Notes under the pieces: generated by a model
What the model was told of the DNA's origin: nothing
Databases searched by the model: none
The model's input: the letters and a program-made list of their open reading frames with translations, nothing else
Origin: Limisphaerales bacterium
GTDB taxonomy: Bacteria; Verrucomicrobiota; Verrucomicrobiia; Limisphaerales; UBA11358
Direction of reading: 5' to 3'
NCBI GenBank assembly: GCA_025360325.1
Contig: JANYCI010000126.1
Location: 1 to 38,437 of the forward strand
Length of the DNA stretch: 38,437 bases
Position numbers and translations under genes: made by a program
In this document: positions 4,383-13,161 of the stretch, piece after piece
Numbering within the stretch: position 1 is the stretch's first letter
Layout of the letters: the number at the start of each line of letters is the position of its first letter

Positions 4383-5337
4383 TACACTACTCCTTTCATC
4401 CGCAGATTGCGCAGATGAACGCAGATTAAATCATCGGCGAAAATCAGCGTCATCTGCGGAAGGTGTCTTCTGCCTCTTGCTGTTGAGCGGCACGCTAGCC
4501 TTGGCCGACTCGCCCGCAATCCAGCGAACATGGCTGGATGATCGTGTCGTCGTCACCGTGCCAGTCGCGACGAACCGCGTCACCACGGTCAATTTTCCCG
4601 GTGCGATTGAGGCCATTGATGGCGTTGGCTTCACCGTGGACGGAAAAACTTCCGGCGCGTTCCAACTCGCGCACGCAAACCGTTCGGCGTTCTTTTCCGT
4701 GCGTGCGCTCGCCCTCGGTGTTTCCGCCAATCTCAATGTCCGGTGGAACGAACGCACCTATGTTTTGGAGTTTATCGAAAGTAACCCACCTATGCTGTCG
4801 CTGAATCTTGAACTGCCGCCAACACCGATGGAAAACGGTGCGGTTCGTGCGTCGGAGTTCAATCCGCTTAAACTGCTTGCGCTGCTTGACAAGGCGAAGG
4901 CGTTTCCGTTGCTCAAGCAGCAGCACCCCGAAGCCGTCAGCGATGTCAGTTTCACCAGCTACGACGGCCATCCGCTCGTCAGCGATTTCAACGACTACCA
5001 AATTCAGATCGAACAGGCGTTCCGTTTCAATGCCGAGGACTCGCTCGTTTTCCGCATCGCCATCACCAACGCCACCGAAGCGCCGCTCATGTATCAGCCG
5101 GACAGTTTCATGGTTCGTGCCGGCAACCGGCTTTATCCGCAATCCATCAGTGATGCGGATGGTTCTGTTGGGCCGCACGGAAAGAGCATCGTTTATTTCG
5201 CCATCACCGGCACGCCCGATGGCGGACGTAATGACCTGTCATTAAAAAATAATTTCACCGTGCTGATGAAACGTCTTTCACCGCCGCCAGTAGTCAGCAC
5301 CAACGTCCCCGTCACAATTCAAACGCCAAAAAAATGA
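4366..5337 (+). CDS. trbG: TrbG/VirB9-like outer-membrane channel protein
   Basis: ORF track starts at 4111, but ATG 4366 overlaps the end of the upstream gene and gives MKSTANTLLLSS...VFCLLLLSGTLALADSP (signal peptide). Body VTVPVATNRVTTVNFPGAIEAIDG fits a VirB9-like N-domain; located between trbF and trbI. Confidence 0.5.
   Translation: MKSTANTLLLSSADCADERRLNHRRKSASSAEGVFCLLLLSGTLALADSPAIQRTWLDDRVVVTVPVATNRVTTVNFPGAIEAIDGVGFTVDGKTSGAFQLAHANRSAFFSVRALALGVSANLNVRWNERTYVLEFIESNPPMLSLNLELPPTPMENGAVRASEFNPLKLLALLDKAKAFPLLKQQHPEAVSDVSFTSYDGHPLVSDFNDYQIQIEQAFRFNAEDSLVFRIAITNATEAPLMYQPDSFMVRAGNRLYPQSISDADGSVGPHGKSIVYFAITGTPDGGRNDLSLKNNFTVLMKRLSPPPVVSTNVPVTIQTPKK
4399..4460. repeat. Short palindromic repeat (TCCGCAGAT ... 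ATCTGCGGA) with three CGCAGAT units
   Basis: Perfect 9-bp terminal inverted repeat at 4399-4407 and 4452-4460; CGCAGAT at 4401, 4410 and 4420. Lies inside the signal-peptide region of the trbG-like CDS. Confidence 0.7.
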
Positions 5338-6308
5338 AACCGCGCGAATTTCTTAATTTCTTTAAGACCAAAAGCGGCCGGCTGGTTGCCTTCGGCGCCC
5401 TCTTCGCCGCCGCGCTGACCATCTTCGGCGTGATCCGCAAACATCAGGCGGCGGGCGACGAACCGGTTTCGCCGCTGTTGTCCACCAACCAGCCGCAAGT
5501 GATTCACTCGCTCGTGCGCTCGCTATTCCCGTTCAATCCGCCGCCGGAAAAACCTGAACCCAAATTAACTGTCACGGAAAAATCAAAATACCAAACCAAT
5601 TTTGTTTCGCCGCCCGTCGCAGCCTCGCTACCTGCCATCAGTTTGTTTGCCGATAGCGGAACCGAAACCCCCAAGCCGAAAAAAACAAACGTATTCTCTG
5701 CGCCGTTCGGACGTTTGATCCCGTGCGAAACGATCATCACGGTGGATTCGTCCGCCATCCAGACGCCCATCGTCGGCCTTGTCACTGAGAACATTTTCCA
5801 CGCGGGGCGGCTCGTTATTCCCGTCGGCACGGAAGTTCACGGCACGGCCCAGAACGGTCACGCACGCGACCGTATCGCCAGCGGCGACAATTGGACATTC
5901 GTCTGGCACTCCGGCGAAAAGTTACCGCTCAAGGCCATCGCGCTGGATCGCGAGTTCGTGAACGCCACCAACCAATCCGGCTGGGGCATCACGGATGGCA
6001 GTGCTGGTCTGCGCGGTGAAGTCATCAAGGCGGATGATAACGCGGAACTAAAAATGTTTGGCGCGACGTTTCTGTCCGGCGCGGCGGACGCGCTGACGGA
6101 AAAACAGCCGACGCTGTTCGGCTCGCTCACCAGCCGTTCGCTGAACAACGCTCCGCTCGTCGGCGCGCAGGACGTGCTCAAGACCTACGCGCAGCAGATT
6201 GCCAGCACGCTTCAGCGCGATGGCTTCTATGTCCGCGTGCCGAGCGGCAAACAGTTTTACCTCTACGTCCTGCAAACCATTGACCCTGCCGATGCGACAA
6301 AAAATTAA
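5334..6308 (+). CDS. trbI: TrbI/VirB10-like protein
   Basis: N-terminal TM, Pro-rich region, then PCETIITVDSSAIQTPIVGLVTENIFHAGRLVIPVGTEVHGTAQ...RI...W, typical of the VirB10/TrbI beta-barrel. Confidence 0.82.
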   Translation: MKPREFLNFFKTKSGRLVAFGALFAAALTIFGVIRKHQAAGDEPVSPLLSTNQPQVIHSLVRSLFPFNPPPEKPEPKLTVTEKSKYQTNFVSPPVAASLPAISLFADSGTETPKPKKTNVFSAPFGRLIPCETIITVDSSAIQTPIVGLVTENIFHAGRLVIPVGTEVHGTAQNGHARDRIASGDNWTFVWHSGEKLPLKAIALDREFVNATNQSGWGITDGSAGLRGEVIKADDNAELKMFGATFLSGAADALTEKQPTLFGSLTSRSLNNAPLVGAQDVLKTYAQQIASTLQRDGFYVRVPSGKQFYLYVLQTIDPADATKN

Positions 6309-7623: not shown

Positions 7624-7719
7624 CTGCCAAAGTTGTTTTCTTTCGCCAGAACTTTCTTGGCGGTCAAATTCTTCTTTTGAAATTCAGACCAGCGTTGCCT
7701 GCGGAAAGGAGCGTTGGGC

Positions 7720-7980
7720 GTGAAAGTCTGGGCGAATGACATTGGCCCGAACCTGGCCCGCCTCCGCCTCCGCCGTGGGTTGACGCAGGAGCAGTTCGCC
7801 GCGCAGTTGCAGGTCTTGGGCTACGACTTCAGCCGCCAAGTCATCGCGAACATCGAGTCCCGTCGCCGCCGCGTCTTTGAAGATCACCTGCGGGCATTCA
7901 TCCGGGTGCTGCGCTGCACGCTGGACGAACTGTTCTTCGGCGTTTCCCTGGTTTCGACCACCCATCCTGCGCGCCGGTGA
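7720..7980 (+). CDS. XRE-family helix-turn-helix regulator
   Basis: NLARLRLRRGLTQEQFAAQLQVLGYDFSRQVIANIESRRRRV is an XRE HTH; GTG at 7720 with GGAAAGGAG upstream (track starts at TTG 7714). Confidence 0.8.
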   Translation: MKVWANDIGPNLARLRLRRGLTQEQFAAQLQVLGYDFSRQVIANIESRRRRVFEDHLRAFIRVLRCTLDELFFGVSLVSTTHPARR

Positions 7981-8019
7981 GCAACCGGCATTTGCAAATT
8001 TCCCTGTCTGAGAGTAATT

Positions 8020-11000
8020 ATGGCCGCGCGAAAAACCAATGGCAACGACAGCCAGCAGCTTGATTTTTTCACAGCCGCTCTGCGAACTTATGACAACTCT
8101 GACGCAATACGGACGGATGGCCGAGAAACATTGGCGCGAACATCGCCCGAAACTCGTGCGCGAGCTGGAGGCGAAGGGGCAACTGCACGAGGCGTTGCTG
8201 GAGGCCGAGGAGAACACGAAGGACGAGATGCTGGAGCTGACGCAGCAGTTTCGCAGACAGGGAATGACTCCGCAGCAGGCCCACGACCGCGCGTGGGAAA
8301 TGGTGCGGGAGAACCACATCCTGCTGCCACCCGAGTCCTAGCGGACGGACACCAGTCAGCTAATCCACCGCAGAATTCAAACAACTATCGCATCACCGAC
8401 GCCGACCGGCTCGGCGATGGCTCGGCGAAACAAAAATTCAATCAAAACCTCGACGCCATCCGCACGCTGCTGCGGGTGGAAAAAGAACAGCGCCCAGCCA
8501 CAAACGAGGAGCGGGCCAGACTGGTAAAATATGTCGGCTGGGGCGCGTTCCCCGGCGCGTTCGCCAAGGACGGACAGCCCGCCGCACAGCTCATCGAACT
8601 TTTGAGCGCGGATGAGATCAAAGCCGCCCGCGCTTCCACCATCAACGCACATTACACGTCGCCGACGGTCATTCGCGCCATGTATCAGGCGGCGCAGCAG
8701 TTCGGTTTTCAGGGCGGCAACATTTTGGAACCTGCCTGCGGCATCGGCCATTTCATCGGACTTATGCCGGAAGAAATGCTCCGGCAATCAAACATCACCG
8801 GCATCGAGATTGATCCCATCACCGCACGCATCGCCAAAGCACTTTATCCCGACGCCGATATTCGCGAGCAGCCGTTTGAAAAATCCAAACTCGCCGAGGA
8901 ATCTTTTGACCTCGCCATGTCGAATGTTCCGTTTGGAGATTACGGCGTCCACGATCCGCGTTGGAACGACTACAAATTTTCCATCCATGATTATTTTTTT
9001 GCCGCCGCGCTGGAAAAAGTCCGTCCCGGCGGTTTGATGATGTTCATCACGTCGCGGCACACGCTGGACAAACAGGATTCTTCATTGCGCGAGTTGCTTT
9101 CTACAAAGGCGGAATTTCTTGGTGCAATCCGTTTGCCCAACACGGCGTTCAAGAAAAACGCCGGCACGGAAGTGACGACCGACATTGTGATGCTGCGGAA
9201 GTTGCGCGCGGGCGAAACGCCGCACGGCCCGGCATGGAAATCATCGGTGTCATTTACGAACGACCGCAAGGAGGAATTTTTCATCAACGAATACTTCGCC
9301 ACGCATCTCCACATGATGCTCGGCACGATGCGGCTGGCGCGCGGGATGTATCGCGAGGGCGAACCGACCCTCTCGCCCACCAGTCGTGAATTGAGTGAAG
9401 CATTGAAAGAAGCCGTCGCCAAACTTCCGCAAAATGTCTTTGTTGTCGAAACCAAATCCGTAGAACAAAAAACGCTCGACACCAACATCCCCGCACCCGA
9501 CCACATCAAGCCCAACGCTTACTGCGTCCATTCCGACGGGCGGATTTGTCTCAATGAAAACGGCACGTTAGAACCGCTGGATGATCTACCGGCCGAGACT
9601 CGCTCGCGCATCCGCCGGCTGGTTGACATCCGCGACCGGGTGCGCGGATGTCTGCGCTCGCAGCTTGATGGCAGCAGCGAGGAGCAGGTTGTCGAAGCCC
9701 GCTTTCAACTGAACCTAGTCTATGACCGTTTCATTGCCCGGTTTGGGCCGGTCAATGTTCCGGTCAACCAGCGCGCGTTTTATGGCGATCCAGATTTGCC
9801 GTTGCTGTTGTCGCTCGAAAATTACGACGACGAATCGCGCAAGGCGACCAAGGCCGCAATTTTCCGCGAACGCACCATCCATCACAAACAGGCTATCGAA
9901 TCCGTCGGCACACCGAAGGAAGCATTGCTCGTCACGCTGAATGAGAAAGGCCGGGTTGACCTTGACCGCATGGGCAGTCTGCTGAACAAACCTGTTGATG
10001 AAATCTTGCCCGACCTAAAAGGTTTGATTTTTCTGAATCCACTGTCGAAGCAATGGGAGACGGAAGATCAATACCTCTCCGGCAATATCCGTGAAAAATT
10101 GCTAGCGGCTGACACAGCCAGCACGAGTGATCCGCGCTTTCGCGAAAATGTCGAGGCATTGAAATCTGTCATGCCGCAGGATTTGCCGGCCACGGAGATT
10201 GACGTTCGGCTTGGAGCGTCGTGGTTGCCGTCTTCCGATGTGTGCGATTTCGTTCACAGCTTGCTTGGCATTCCATCTGGAGTTGAAGTCGGTCATATCC
10301 ACGCGCTCGGCACATGGAGTGTTGGCGGAAATTGGGAAGCACGCGGCGCTACCGCCAACACGACGGATTGGGGAACAGATCGTTATACCGGTTTGGAACT
10401 CATTGAGGAAACGTTGAATCTCAAAACGCCCACGGTCTATGATTATGTGGACAAGAAACCGTTTGTCAACGCGCAGGCCACCGAGGCCGCGCGTGAAAAA
10501 CAGGAGCGCATCAAGGAACAGTTTTCCAAATGGATTTGGTCAGACGACAGCCGCCGAGAACGGCTGTGCCGCCTTTACAATGACACGTTCAATCACTCTC
10601 GATTGCGGACGTTCAACGGCGAGCATTTGACTTTGCCCGGCGCTAGTTCAGTCATCAATCTGCACGGCCATCAAAAATCCGGCGTCTGGCGAATTTTGCA
10701 GACGGACAATACCTTGCTCGGCCACGTCGTCGGCGCGGGTAAGACGTTCACGATGGTTGCTGCCAGCATGGAGTTGAAGCGATTGAAGCTGGCGAACAAG
10801 CCGCTGTTCACCGTGCCCAATCACATGCTCGGCCAGTTCTCGACCGAGCTGCTCATGCTCTATCCCGGTGCAAATATATTGGTTGCGGGCAAAGAAGATT
10901 TTGAGGCACAGCATCGGAAAAAATTGTTCAGCCGCATTGCTACGGGAAATTGGGATGCCGTCATCGTCACGCACTCCGGCTTTGAACGCATCCCGCTGTC

Positions 11001-13161
11001 ACACGAAACCCAGGTGCGCTTTTTTCAGGAACAACTGGAAGACTTGGAGAAGATAAAACGTGAACACGCCGCACCGGAAAATCGCCGGATGGTGAAAGAA
11101 CTGGAAAAGGCCAAGAAACGGCTCGAAGCAAAATTGGAAGATTTGGCGGCGGCGCACAAAAAAGACAACACGCTCACTTTTGAAGAACTCGGCATAGACC
11201 GGCTGTTTGTGGACGAGGCGCACTATTTCAAAAATCTTTTCTACGTTTCCAAGATGACGCGCATCGCTGGCCTGCCACAGACGGCCAGTGAACGCGCGTT
11301 CGATATGTATCTGAAAGTCCGCCATGTCCAGTCGGTGAACAACGGCGGCGGCGTGGTGTTCGCCACGGGCACGCCCATTGCGAACAGCATGGCCGAGATG
11401 TTCACGATGCAGCGATACTTGCAGCCACAGGCATTGCTGAAACACAATCTGCATCACTTCGACGGTTGGGCGGCCACGTTCGGCGAGCCGGTGACGGCGA
11501 TGGAACTTTCCCCCGATGGTGCAGGCTATCGGCTCAATACGCGTTTCGCCCGCTTCGTCAACGTGCCGGAACTGATGCAGATTTTTCGGCAGACGGCAGA
11601 CGTGCAAACCGCCGCGATGTTGAACTTGCCACGCCCAAAGCTAGAAGGCGAAAAGCCAACCATCCGCAGCGCACCGGCATCCGAAGAATTGAAAAAGTTC
11701 GTTGAAGGTCTTGCACGCCGCGCTGAAGCGATGCGAACTGGACGTGTTGATCCGCGCGAAGACAATATGCTCAAAATCACAACGGAAGGACGCAAGGCGG
11801 CATTGGATTTGCGTTTGATGAAGCCCACATTGCCAGACGATCCACAGAGCAAGGTGAACCTAGCCGTCGAAAACATTCACAAGATTTGGGAAGCGACGAA
11901 GGACGGACGATTGGCTCAACTTGTGTTCTGCGATTTGTCCACGCCGCAGGCCAAGGGATTTTCAGTCTATCACGACATGGCCGACAAATTGGGGCGGCTC
12001 GGCGTTCCTGAAAATGAAATTGCCTTCATCCAAGATTATGATCCCGATGCCGCGAAGCTCGCATTGTTCCGCGATGTGCGATCAGGGAAAATCCGACTCT
12101 TATTCGGTAGCACGCAAAAAATGGGTTCGGGAACCAACGTGCAAGAACGGTTGATTGCCCTGCATCACCTCGACGCACCGTGGCGACCAGCGGACGTGGA
12201 GCAGCGCGAGGGCCGTATCTTGCGGCAAGGGAATAAAAATCCGTCCGTGCAAATTTATCGCTACGTCACCGAGGGCAGTTTCGATGCCTATATGTGGCAG
12301 ACATTGGAGACGAAGGCGAAGTTCATCGCGCAGGTGATGAGCGGGGACATGACCGTGCGGCGATTGGAAGACATGGACTCTGCCGCGCTGACGTATGCCG
12401 AAGTAAAAGCCATCGCTTCGGGCAATCCACTTGTCATCGAAAAGGCGCAGGTGGACGCCGAGTTAATGCGGCTCTCGCGGCTGCGCCATGCCCACGCCGA
12501 GGAACAGTATCGCATCCGTAACAATCTCCGTTATGCCCGCGACGAGGTGACGAAATGGAGCGAACGATTGGCAAACATGGGCGAAGATTTGAAGCTACGG
12601 CAGGATACGTCAGGCGAAAAGTTCTGCATCATGCTGGACAAGCAGCAGCTCGACAATCGCGGCATCGCCGGTGAATTGATTCTGCGGCGGGCGGAAAAAA
12701 TGTCGCAGCGTTTTGGCGACGACGTCCGGCTCGGCGCATTTGCGGGATATGATCTGTTTCTCCGCTGCGGTTTTAACAACGCCGCCGAACTCGTGCTGCG
12801 CGGCAAAAGCAGTTACAGCATCCGTGTCACCGACACGGCCATCGGAACCATCCGTTCACTTGAAGCGATGGCGCAGGGCTTTGAGGAACGCATGGCAAAA
12901 CTGGAAACGGATATTAAGGATTCGCAGAAACGCGCCAACGAACTCGAAACAAAAGTCGGTGCAGTATTTGAAAAAGAGAAACGCTATCATTTTTTGGTTC
13001 AAAGGCAGACTGAAATCGAGGACAAACTTGATCTCACTAAAAATCAGGCTCCGGTGCAGGTCGAGGACATCGCGCAAGAAACCAATCAAGAATCTAAATC
13101 CATCCAGTTGGCCACCAAGCCAAGCCACAACAAGAATAAACGGGCTGCCTTGCGAGTTTAA
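8020..13161 (+). CDS. DarB-like DNA methyltransferase-SF2 helicase (1713 aa)
   Basis: SAM-MTase motif I ILEPACGIGHFIGLMP and motif IV-like SNVPFGDY; Walker A VVGAGKTFTMV; DEAH FVDEAHYFKNL; helicase C-domain GSTQKMGSGTNVQERLIALHHLDAPWRPADVEQREGRILRQG. Confidence 0.85.
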   Translation: MAARKTNGNDSQQLDFFTAALRTYDNSDAIRTDGRETLARTSPETRARAGGEGATARGVAGGRGEHEGRDAGADAAVSQTGNDSAAGPRPRVGNGAGEPHPAATRVLADGHQSANPPQNSNNYRITDADRLGDGSAKQKFNQNLDAIRTLLRVEKEQRPATNEERARLVKYVGWGAFPGAFAKDGQPAAQLIELLSADEIKAARASTINAHYTSPTVIRAMYQAAQQFGFQGGNILEPACGIGHFIGLMPEEMLRQSNITGIEIDPITARIAKALYPDADIREQPFEKSKLAEESFDLAMSNVPFGDYGVHDPRWNDYKFSIHDYFFAAALEKVRPGGLMMFITSRHTLDKQDSSLRELLSTKAEFLGAIRLPNTAFKKNAGTEVTTDIVMLRKLRAGETPHGPAWKSSVSFTNDRKEEFFINEYFATHLHMMLGTMRLARGMYREGEPTLSPTSRELSEALKEAVAKLPQNVFVVETKSVEQKTLDTNIPAPDHIKPNAYCVHSDGRICLNENGTLEPLDDLPAETRSRIRRLVDIRDRVRGCLRSQLDGSSEEQVVEARFQLNLVYDRFIARFGPVNVPVNQRAFYGDPDLPLLLSLENYDDESRKATKAAIFRERTIHHKQAIESVGTPKEALLVTLNEKGRVDLDRMGSLLNKPVDEILPDLKGLIFLNPLSKQWETEDQYLSGNIREKLLAADTASTSDPRFRENVEALKSVMPQDLPATEIDVRLGASWLPSSDVCDFVHSLLGIPSGVEVGHIHALGTWSVGGNWEARGATANTTDWGTDRYTGLELIEETLNLKTPTVYDYVDKKPFVNAQATEAAREKQERIKEQFSKWIWSDDSRRERLCRLYNDTFNHSRLRTFNGEHLTLPGASSVINLHGHQKSGVWRILQTDNTLLGHVVGAGKTFTMVAASMELKRLKLANKPLFTVPNHMLGQFSTELLMLYPGANILVAGKEDFEAQHRKKLFSRIATGNWDAVIVTHSGFERIPLSHETQVRFFQEQLEDLEKIKREHAAPENRRMVKELEKAKKRLEAKLEDLAAAHKKDNTLTFEELGIDRLFVDEAHYFKNLFYVSKMTRIAGLPQTASERAFDMYLKVRHVQSVNNGGGVVFATGTPIANSMAEMFTMQRYLQPQALLKHNLHHFDGWAATFGEPVTAMELSPDGAGYRLNTRFARFVNVPELMQIFRQTADVQTAAMLNLPRPKLEGEKPTIRSAPASEELKKFVEGLARRAEAMRTGRVDPREDNMLKITTEGRKAALDLRLMKPTLPDDPQSKVNLAVENIHKIWEATKDGRLAQLVFCDLSTPQAKGFSVYHDMADKLGRLGVPENEIAFIQDYDPDAAKLALFRDVRSGKIRLLFGSTQKMGSGTNVQERLIALHHLDAPWRPADVEQREGRILRQGNKNPSVQIYRYVTEGSFDAYMWQTLETKAKFIAQVMSGDMTVRRLEDMDSAALTYAEVKAIASGNPLVIEKAQVDAELMRLSRLRHAHAEEQYRIRNNLRYARDEVTKWSERLANMGEDLKLRQDTSGEKFCIMLDKQQLDNRGIAGELILRRAEKMSQRFGDDVRLGAFAGYDLFLRCGFNNAAELVLRGKSSYSIRVTDTAIGTIRSLEAMAQGFEERMAKLETDIKDSQKRANELETKVGAVFEKEKRYHFLVQRQTEIEDKLDLTKNQAPVQVEDIAQETNQESKSIQLATKPSHNKNKRAALRV
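8090..8341 (+). CDS. TnpV-like small protein, wholly overlapping the helicase N-terminus in another frame
   Basis: MTTLTQYGRMAEKHWREHRPKLVRELEAKGQLHEALLEAEENTKDEMLELTQQFRRQGMTPQQAHDRAWEMVRENHILLPPES; resembles TnpV-type YGRM..K...EHRP...L...G.L..LLE. GC-rich third positions in this frame. Confidence 0.5.
   Translation: MTTLTQYGRMAEKHWREHRPKLVRELEAKGQLHEALLEAEENTKDEMLELTQQFRRQGMTPQQAHDRAWEMVRENHILLPPES

Follow-up and report, generated by a model that had tools for sequence, protein, structure and literature searches.

Phages and conjugative elements encode DarB-like antirestriction proteins of very large size, whose mechanism is poorly understood. The window analyzed here, i.e. the whole stretch of 38,437 nucleotides from a Limisphaerales bacterium, carries a candidate darB gene whose 5' part is open in two frames of the same strand. 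The locus raises the question whether the second frame encodes a protein of its own, is joined to the first by frameshifting or is open by accident. If a second protein inside darB is real, darB deletions, clones and expression constructs made from carriers have unwittingly removed or included it.

The locus and its two predicted products

The features of the locus are outlined in Table 1. Two open frames between 8090 and 8341 had been described in an initial annotation of this DNA, and they are borne out by ORFs at 8020-13161 and 8018-8341, the latter measured from stop to stop and closed by TAG at 8339-8341. The tnpV frame is +1 relative to darB, codon position 3 of tnpV being codon position 1 of darB, and the third reading frame across the overlap always contains stops. 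In most loci the methyltransferase (MTase) region begins tens of bases 3' of the tnpV stop. The ORF listing places the start of the alternate ORF at ATG 8039, a candidate that was rejected as tnpV start since it is not the conserved one, whereas 37 of 44 homologs have a start codon exactly at 8090.

Table 1. Positions of the darB/tnpV features in coordinates of the window.
Feature	Position	Strand	Basis or description
Predicted darB-type N6-adenine methyltransferase / SWI2-SNF2 helicase gene	8020..13161	+	ORF, 1713 aa
QLDFF motif at the DarB N-terminus, resembling a beta-sliding-clamp binding motif	8056..8070	+	motif comparison
Predicted tnpV-like nested gene	8090..8341	+	83 aa, four helices; PF14198 match, homologs, dN/dS, AlphaFold
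Putative tnpV start codon ATG	8090..8092	+	start codon kept among homologs; RNA-structure minimum
Disordered linker in the DarB frame over tnpV, Gly/Ala/Arg/Asp-rich	8089..8361	+	pLDDT, dN/dS, stop-free
Beginning of the conserved region with N-terminal helices and MTase, YRITDADRLGDG..., directly 3' of the tnpV stop	8383..9250	+	alignments
HTH regulator gene, just 5' of darB and outside the overlap	7714..7980	+	HTH_31, 40.1 bits

In the long frame, Pfam analysis gave the order MTase, then SNF2/Helicase_C, with Methyltransf_11 above and SNF2-rel_dom and Helicase_C just below the cut-off. The protein is about 39-43% identical to phage proteins, many of which are annotated as DarB-like, across 95-98% of the query. 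At the position of the catalytic MTase motif, for which the family form is NPP(Y/F), NVPF is found here (SNVPFGDY) and in related loci, and mostly NPPF in the phages. The 1713-residue protein is classified by its sequence as a DarB-type methylase-helicase, in which a predicted N6-adenine MTase is followed by a SWI2/SNF2-type helicase in one chain. Iyer et al. (2017, PMC5512222) described the same architecture for the DarB-type dyad among the polyvalent proteins, which occur in phages and conjugative elements, with a GxG(G/A/S)-like motif in the helical N-terminal region.

The product of the nested frame matched Pfam family PF14198 (TnpV) with 29.7 bits (gathering cut-off 27, E 6.8e-7), which corroborates the TnpV-like signature recognized earlier. 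The phage members tested scored below the cut-off, yet the same invariant residues were aligned. AlphaFold predicted four helices for the TnpV frame with a pLDDT of 95.9; for DarB residues 1-114, encoded by the same DNA, the pLDDT was about 28. A fold search of the PDB with TnpV returned no similar solved structure; weak IcmS/W-like matches at E > 5 were disregarded.

As in the present case, TnpV proteins of Tn4451 and of C. difficile Tn6104 are borne by mobile elements. The C. difficile genes are located on elements with large serine recombinases, and for Tn4451 TnpV a role in excision was postulated by homology with lambda Xis (PMC3158075). Unlike these genes, the present tnpV is nested inside darB and found together with it; instead of a stand-alone gene next to a transposon recombinase, the bacterial and viral loci found carry tnpV within darB. 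We file the nested protein as a TnpV-like homolog and not as an excisionase.

The HTH regulator gene 5' of darB probably belongs to the same element. Type IV secretion genes at 1833-2612 and 5334-6308 (T4SS family PF07996, TrbI) place tnpV/darB beside conjugation genes. The 3' side is occupied by a glycoside-hydrolase island (13302-35553) with two alpha-L-fucosidases, GH127, a rhamnosidase, GH3/GH12, GH31 and a raffinose synthase, together with a Ser/Thr protein kinase.

Recurrence of the nested arrangement

A second copy in the source genome (contig C115; TnpV 74% and DarB 60% identical) retains both frames. A third darB copy is represented by its 3' part only, at the end of contig C245 (28854-30110). 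Scanning of a genome collection yielded 43 loci, nearly all from Verrucomicrobia, and in nearly every one the tnpV ORF lies inside darB at the same offset; in a sample of 289 genomes from the phylum, TnpV matches always coincide with a darB locus. In phages, tblastn unveiled TnpV inside the DarB-like-annotated genes of Pavtok, PEp14, LASTA, SopranoGao, POI1126, Atu_ph08 and VvAW1 and within the corresponding genes of Stean and Itty13, in each case unannotated, out of frame and at the offset seen in Verrucomicrobia. A scan of viral contigs added 57 further loci with the same nested offset wherever the MTase could be placed. Leaving aside the cyanobacterial loci, all plus-strand TnpV homologs that were found by protein search and confirmed beside an intact MTase lie inside darB at one frame offset, in 45 Verrucomicrobia and 58 distinct phage or viral loci, the phages being those of many different hosts. 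Alignment of homologous loci had been proposed as a check on whether only one frame is conserved; both are kept. A tblastn search of plasmids with TnpV gave no matches, and a nested family of plasmids surfaced only via the MTase (see below).

In cyanobacteria, tnpV and the MTase-helicase gene are neighbors with a small overlap. As here, tnpV lies directly 5' of the MTase-helicase gene in Acaryochloris (pREC3) and Phormidesmis, but the neighboring genes share only a few to tens of bases and have another frame offset. Plausibly, this gene order would be the older arrangement.

A few loci are irregular. In Sinorhizobium phage PBC5 (L064, 5709-6285) the upstream protein shares its frame with TnpV, and the MTase-helicase occupies the other one. 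Either a real rearrangement or a sequencing error may account for this, the genome being an old one. A TnpV domain is also found at the C-terminus of PHROG 938 ('endolysin'). An Opitutaceae locus (L052, 6900-7400) has a darB that is interrupted shortly 3' of the overlap and a truncated tnpV, and this copy appears to be decaying. A contig binned as Methanoregulaceae archaeon (L037) contains a typical Verrucomicrobia-type tnpV/darB and is probably mis-binned.

Start signals, selection and openness of the frames

An ATG, GTG or TTG is present near the expected tnpV start in 44 of 45 bacterial and in all 58 phage loci. A Shine-Dalgarno sequence accompanies the nested start in 57/58 phage loci (background 13.6%) and in 4/44 Verrucomicrobia loci, and most genes of the window are likewise without one. 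In both groups local RNA structure is weakest at the nested start. Start codon, phage Shine-Dalgarno and structure minimum all argue against programmed frameshifting, by which TnpV would be joined to the N-terminal tail of DarB or to the phage polyprotein and a short product would end at the TnpV stop. Moreover, two bacterial and eight phage loci have a stop in the nested frame only one or two codons 5' of the start, so that a frameshift could hardly be accommodated there. In most bacterial loci the nested frame extends at least about 9 codons 5' of the start, the T-rich LDLF codons could slip, PHROG 938 carries the TnpV domain at its C-terminus, and TnpV is in frame with the upstream protein in PBC5, which is one old sequence; on the whole we regard frameshifting as improbable. 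Of the two explanations offered in the initial annotation, dual coding is supported, as homologs keep both frames, and a frameshift-mediated relation is disfavored.

In the DarB frame 5' of tnpV, a QL[DENS][LF][FL] motif was found in 41 of 45 loci and in none of 1586 control windows, usually 12 residues after the Met and 6 before the tnpV start; in locus L033 the QLDLF tail is absent. We take QLDLF to be a putative clamp-binding motif (a QL[SD]LF-type peptide binding DnaN). Conservation of the motif supports the DarB start at 8020 as real and MAARKTNGNDSQQLDFF as the true DarB N-terminus, as had been supposed for the helicase from its appearance. Similar xLDLF tails occur in three Verrucomicrobia DarBs without tnpV (L147, L148, L151).

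In close Verrucomicrobia pairs, TnpV had a median dN/dS of 0.169 and the adjacent MTase one of 0.162, against 2.3 in the overlapping part of the DarB frame; the corresponding values of the more diverged phage pairs were 0.61, 0.46 and 1.2. Standard dN/dS is biased in overlapping genes, and these values serve as a contrast and not as estimates. Together with the concentration of substitutions at tnpV codon position 3, this contrast points to tnpV as the constrained frame, under purifying selection as a protein, and to the DarB frame as open but free in sequence. Up to moderate divergence, the evolutionary rates at 4-fold sites are about equal in tnpV and the MTase, which suggests for the DarB linker no clear selection at the amino-acid level and only openness; the DarB segments flanking the overlap on both sides are conserved. 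The dN/dS comparison per frame that had been suggested as a check thus turned out differently for the two frames, TnpV being constrained and the DarB overlap frame merely open. The description of TnpV as overprinted on the linker holds for the overlap itself, but its direction is probably the reverse, with TnpV as the sequence-constrained protein and the DarB linker written over it.

For the analysis of openness, TnpV proteins were recoded with synonymous codons at local codon usage, and the fraction of trials with an open DarB frame was determined. This fraction averaged 11.6% for bacteria and 8% for phages, and the observed DarB frame was open in 43/43 Verrucomicrobia and 56/56 phage loci. 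Irregular loci, e.g. L029 and L054, were excluded from the set of 43; an earlier run that included L029, which has a stop in the DarB frame, gave 46/47. When each cluster was represented by a single locus (below 70% nucleotide identity), the frame was open in 6/6 bacterial (0.5 expected) and 32/32 phage lineages (3.3 expected), i.e. in 38/38 combined against about 4 expected. Both frames are kept open beyond chance in independent lineages.

These results also bear on the reading in which only TnpV is real, DarB starts 3' of 8341 and the open DarB frame upstream is a by-product. Pseudomonas and Burkholderia plasmid records are annotated in this manner and the dN/dS of the DarB frame in the overlap exceeds 1, but the frame is free of stops in every lineage tested, the QLDLF tail is conserved in it, plasmid DarBs have a QLxFDF tail 5' of the annotated start, and in phages the DarB polyprotein continues in frame upstream for thousands of bases; we consider this reading very unlikely. 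Even less credible is the converse, i.e. a real DarB with a TnpV ORF that is open by chance. Alternate frames of GC-rich DNA are often long, and 5-21% of control positions have an ORF of at least 60 codons. Recoding, however, leaves DarB open in about 12% of trials against the 43/43 observed, and the PF14198 profile is matched above its cut-off, so that the nested ORF is not regarded as a chance open frame; the confident predicted fold, the dN/dS of 0.17 in DNA whose DarB frame is unconstrained and the Shine-Dalgarno of the phage copies point the same way. A sequencing or assembly indel that split one protein has a negligible probability: the window stems from a 372-contig draft, but the same geometry recurs on plasmids, in phage genomes that are finished and in dozens of MAGs of independent origin, and an indel between 8090 and 8390 in one assembly, as considered initially, cannot recur in dozens of unrelated ones.

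Proposed relation of the pair and further nested families

A genuine same-strand nested gene pair, with dual coding by independent initiation, is in our judgment highly probable, and the nested tnpV appears to be a real, mostly unannotated gene and not an accident. By sequence, DarB begins at 8020 with a short tail bearing the clamp-binding-like QLDFF, followed by the disordered linker and the methyltransferase-helicase, and a complete tnpV-like gene lies within the linker, one base out of phase. The linker may tolerate the overlap because it needs only openness and flexibility. Translation of tnpV would proceed by internal initiation at ATG 8090, independent of DarB; a Shine-Dalgarno would serve the nested initiation in phages and plasmids, and in Verrucomicrobia an unstructured start without one, like that of most window genes. 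We give an even chance to TnpV acting as a small helical partner of DarB, be it an assembly or DNA-loading subunit or a chaperone. The clamp motif could recruit DarB to element DNA that is newly replicated or just entering, which would then be methylated before restriction, and the nesting would hold both genes together in horizontal transfer, with both products made from one mRNA.

In order to avoid selection by TnpV, a viral sample of 83 distinct loci was chosen by the MTase alone. An ORF of at least 60 codons ending beside the MTase was observed at offset 2 in 65/83 and at offset 1 in 0/83 loci. Eight loci scored as lacking it are contigs with tnpV further upstream, before an extra domain. 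Among the 65, locus L226 owes its score to a spurious ORF, and its tnpV, too, has a more upstream position (L077). The TnpV profile is matched by about half of the nested ORFs; others fall into families that have a W...P...L...G.L core in similar form. In hhalign comparisons of TnpV with other nested families, P values of 4e-4 and 1.3e-4 and probabilities of 34-54% were obtained, which is only suggestive of homology.

A second nested family is seen in proteobacterial conjugative plasmids. In Pseudomonas, Burkholderia, Paraburkholderia, Methylovorus and Citrobacter plasmids another small ORF occupies the same site at the same offset, and its start has a Shine-Dalgarno in 6/6 loci; a QLxFDF-like DarB tail is present in most and was not seen in the Citrobacter locus (L251). 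No E. coli genome with the plasmid-type nested pair was found when looked for. The DarB of phage P1 has no nested ORF, and since some DarBs are without one, the nested gene is not universally needed. The P1 DarB partner Ulx was considered as an equivalent of TnpV and gave no convincing match to the TnpV profile. Polyprotein-type darB loci of the same phylum as the window (L146 and the mutually similar L149 and L150) have long nested ORFs at the same offset without a TnpV match. On balance we lean slightly towards a nested out-of-frame small gene before the MTase as a standard second DarB component in conjugative elements, plasmids and tailed phages, whose families (TnpV proper, the 'RWMLGWPKRV' phage, the Bcep22-like and the 'DRWALNSP' plasmid families) would form one distantly related superfamily, an unannotated subunit of a two-subunit DNA-protection machine.

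The main text of the polyvalent-protein analysis (PMC5512222) contains no occurrence of TnpV, 'overlap' or 'out-of-frame' and describes no nested gene, and the available text of the phage JC1 and Parlo papers (PMC9144972, PMC6606913) and of the P1 work (PMC9024508) makes no mention of a nested gene in darB; our search missed most subscription papers, and earlier notice elsewhere is possible. In analogy to tnpV in darB, the whole of Rz1 is nested out of frame and in the same orientation inside Rz and has a start of its own, but these are well-known lysis partners (e.g. PMC9144972), whereas tnpV/darB would concern DNA modification. ardD inside tniA of Tn5053 is likewise an antirestriction-related gene overlapping a large mobile-element gene, but is located on the complementary strand (PMC3533173). 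The tnpV/darB pair would be a clear example of same-strand dual coding that is both long-lived and widespread and that pairs a folded protein with a disordered linker.

Current annotation loses one of the two products, i.e. the nested gene in phages or the DarB N-terminus in plasmids. Several plasmid records label the nested ORF 'hypothetical protein' and place the DarB start 3' of it. In four Pseudomonas and Burkholderia-group plasmids (L130, L248, L249, L250) a QLxFDF-bearing tail lies 5' of the annotated MTase-helicase start, which is probably too far downstream and drops the N-terminus.
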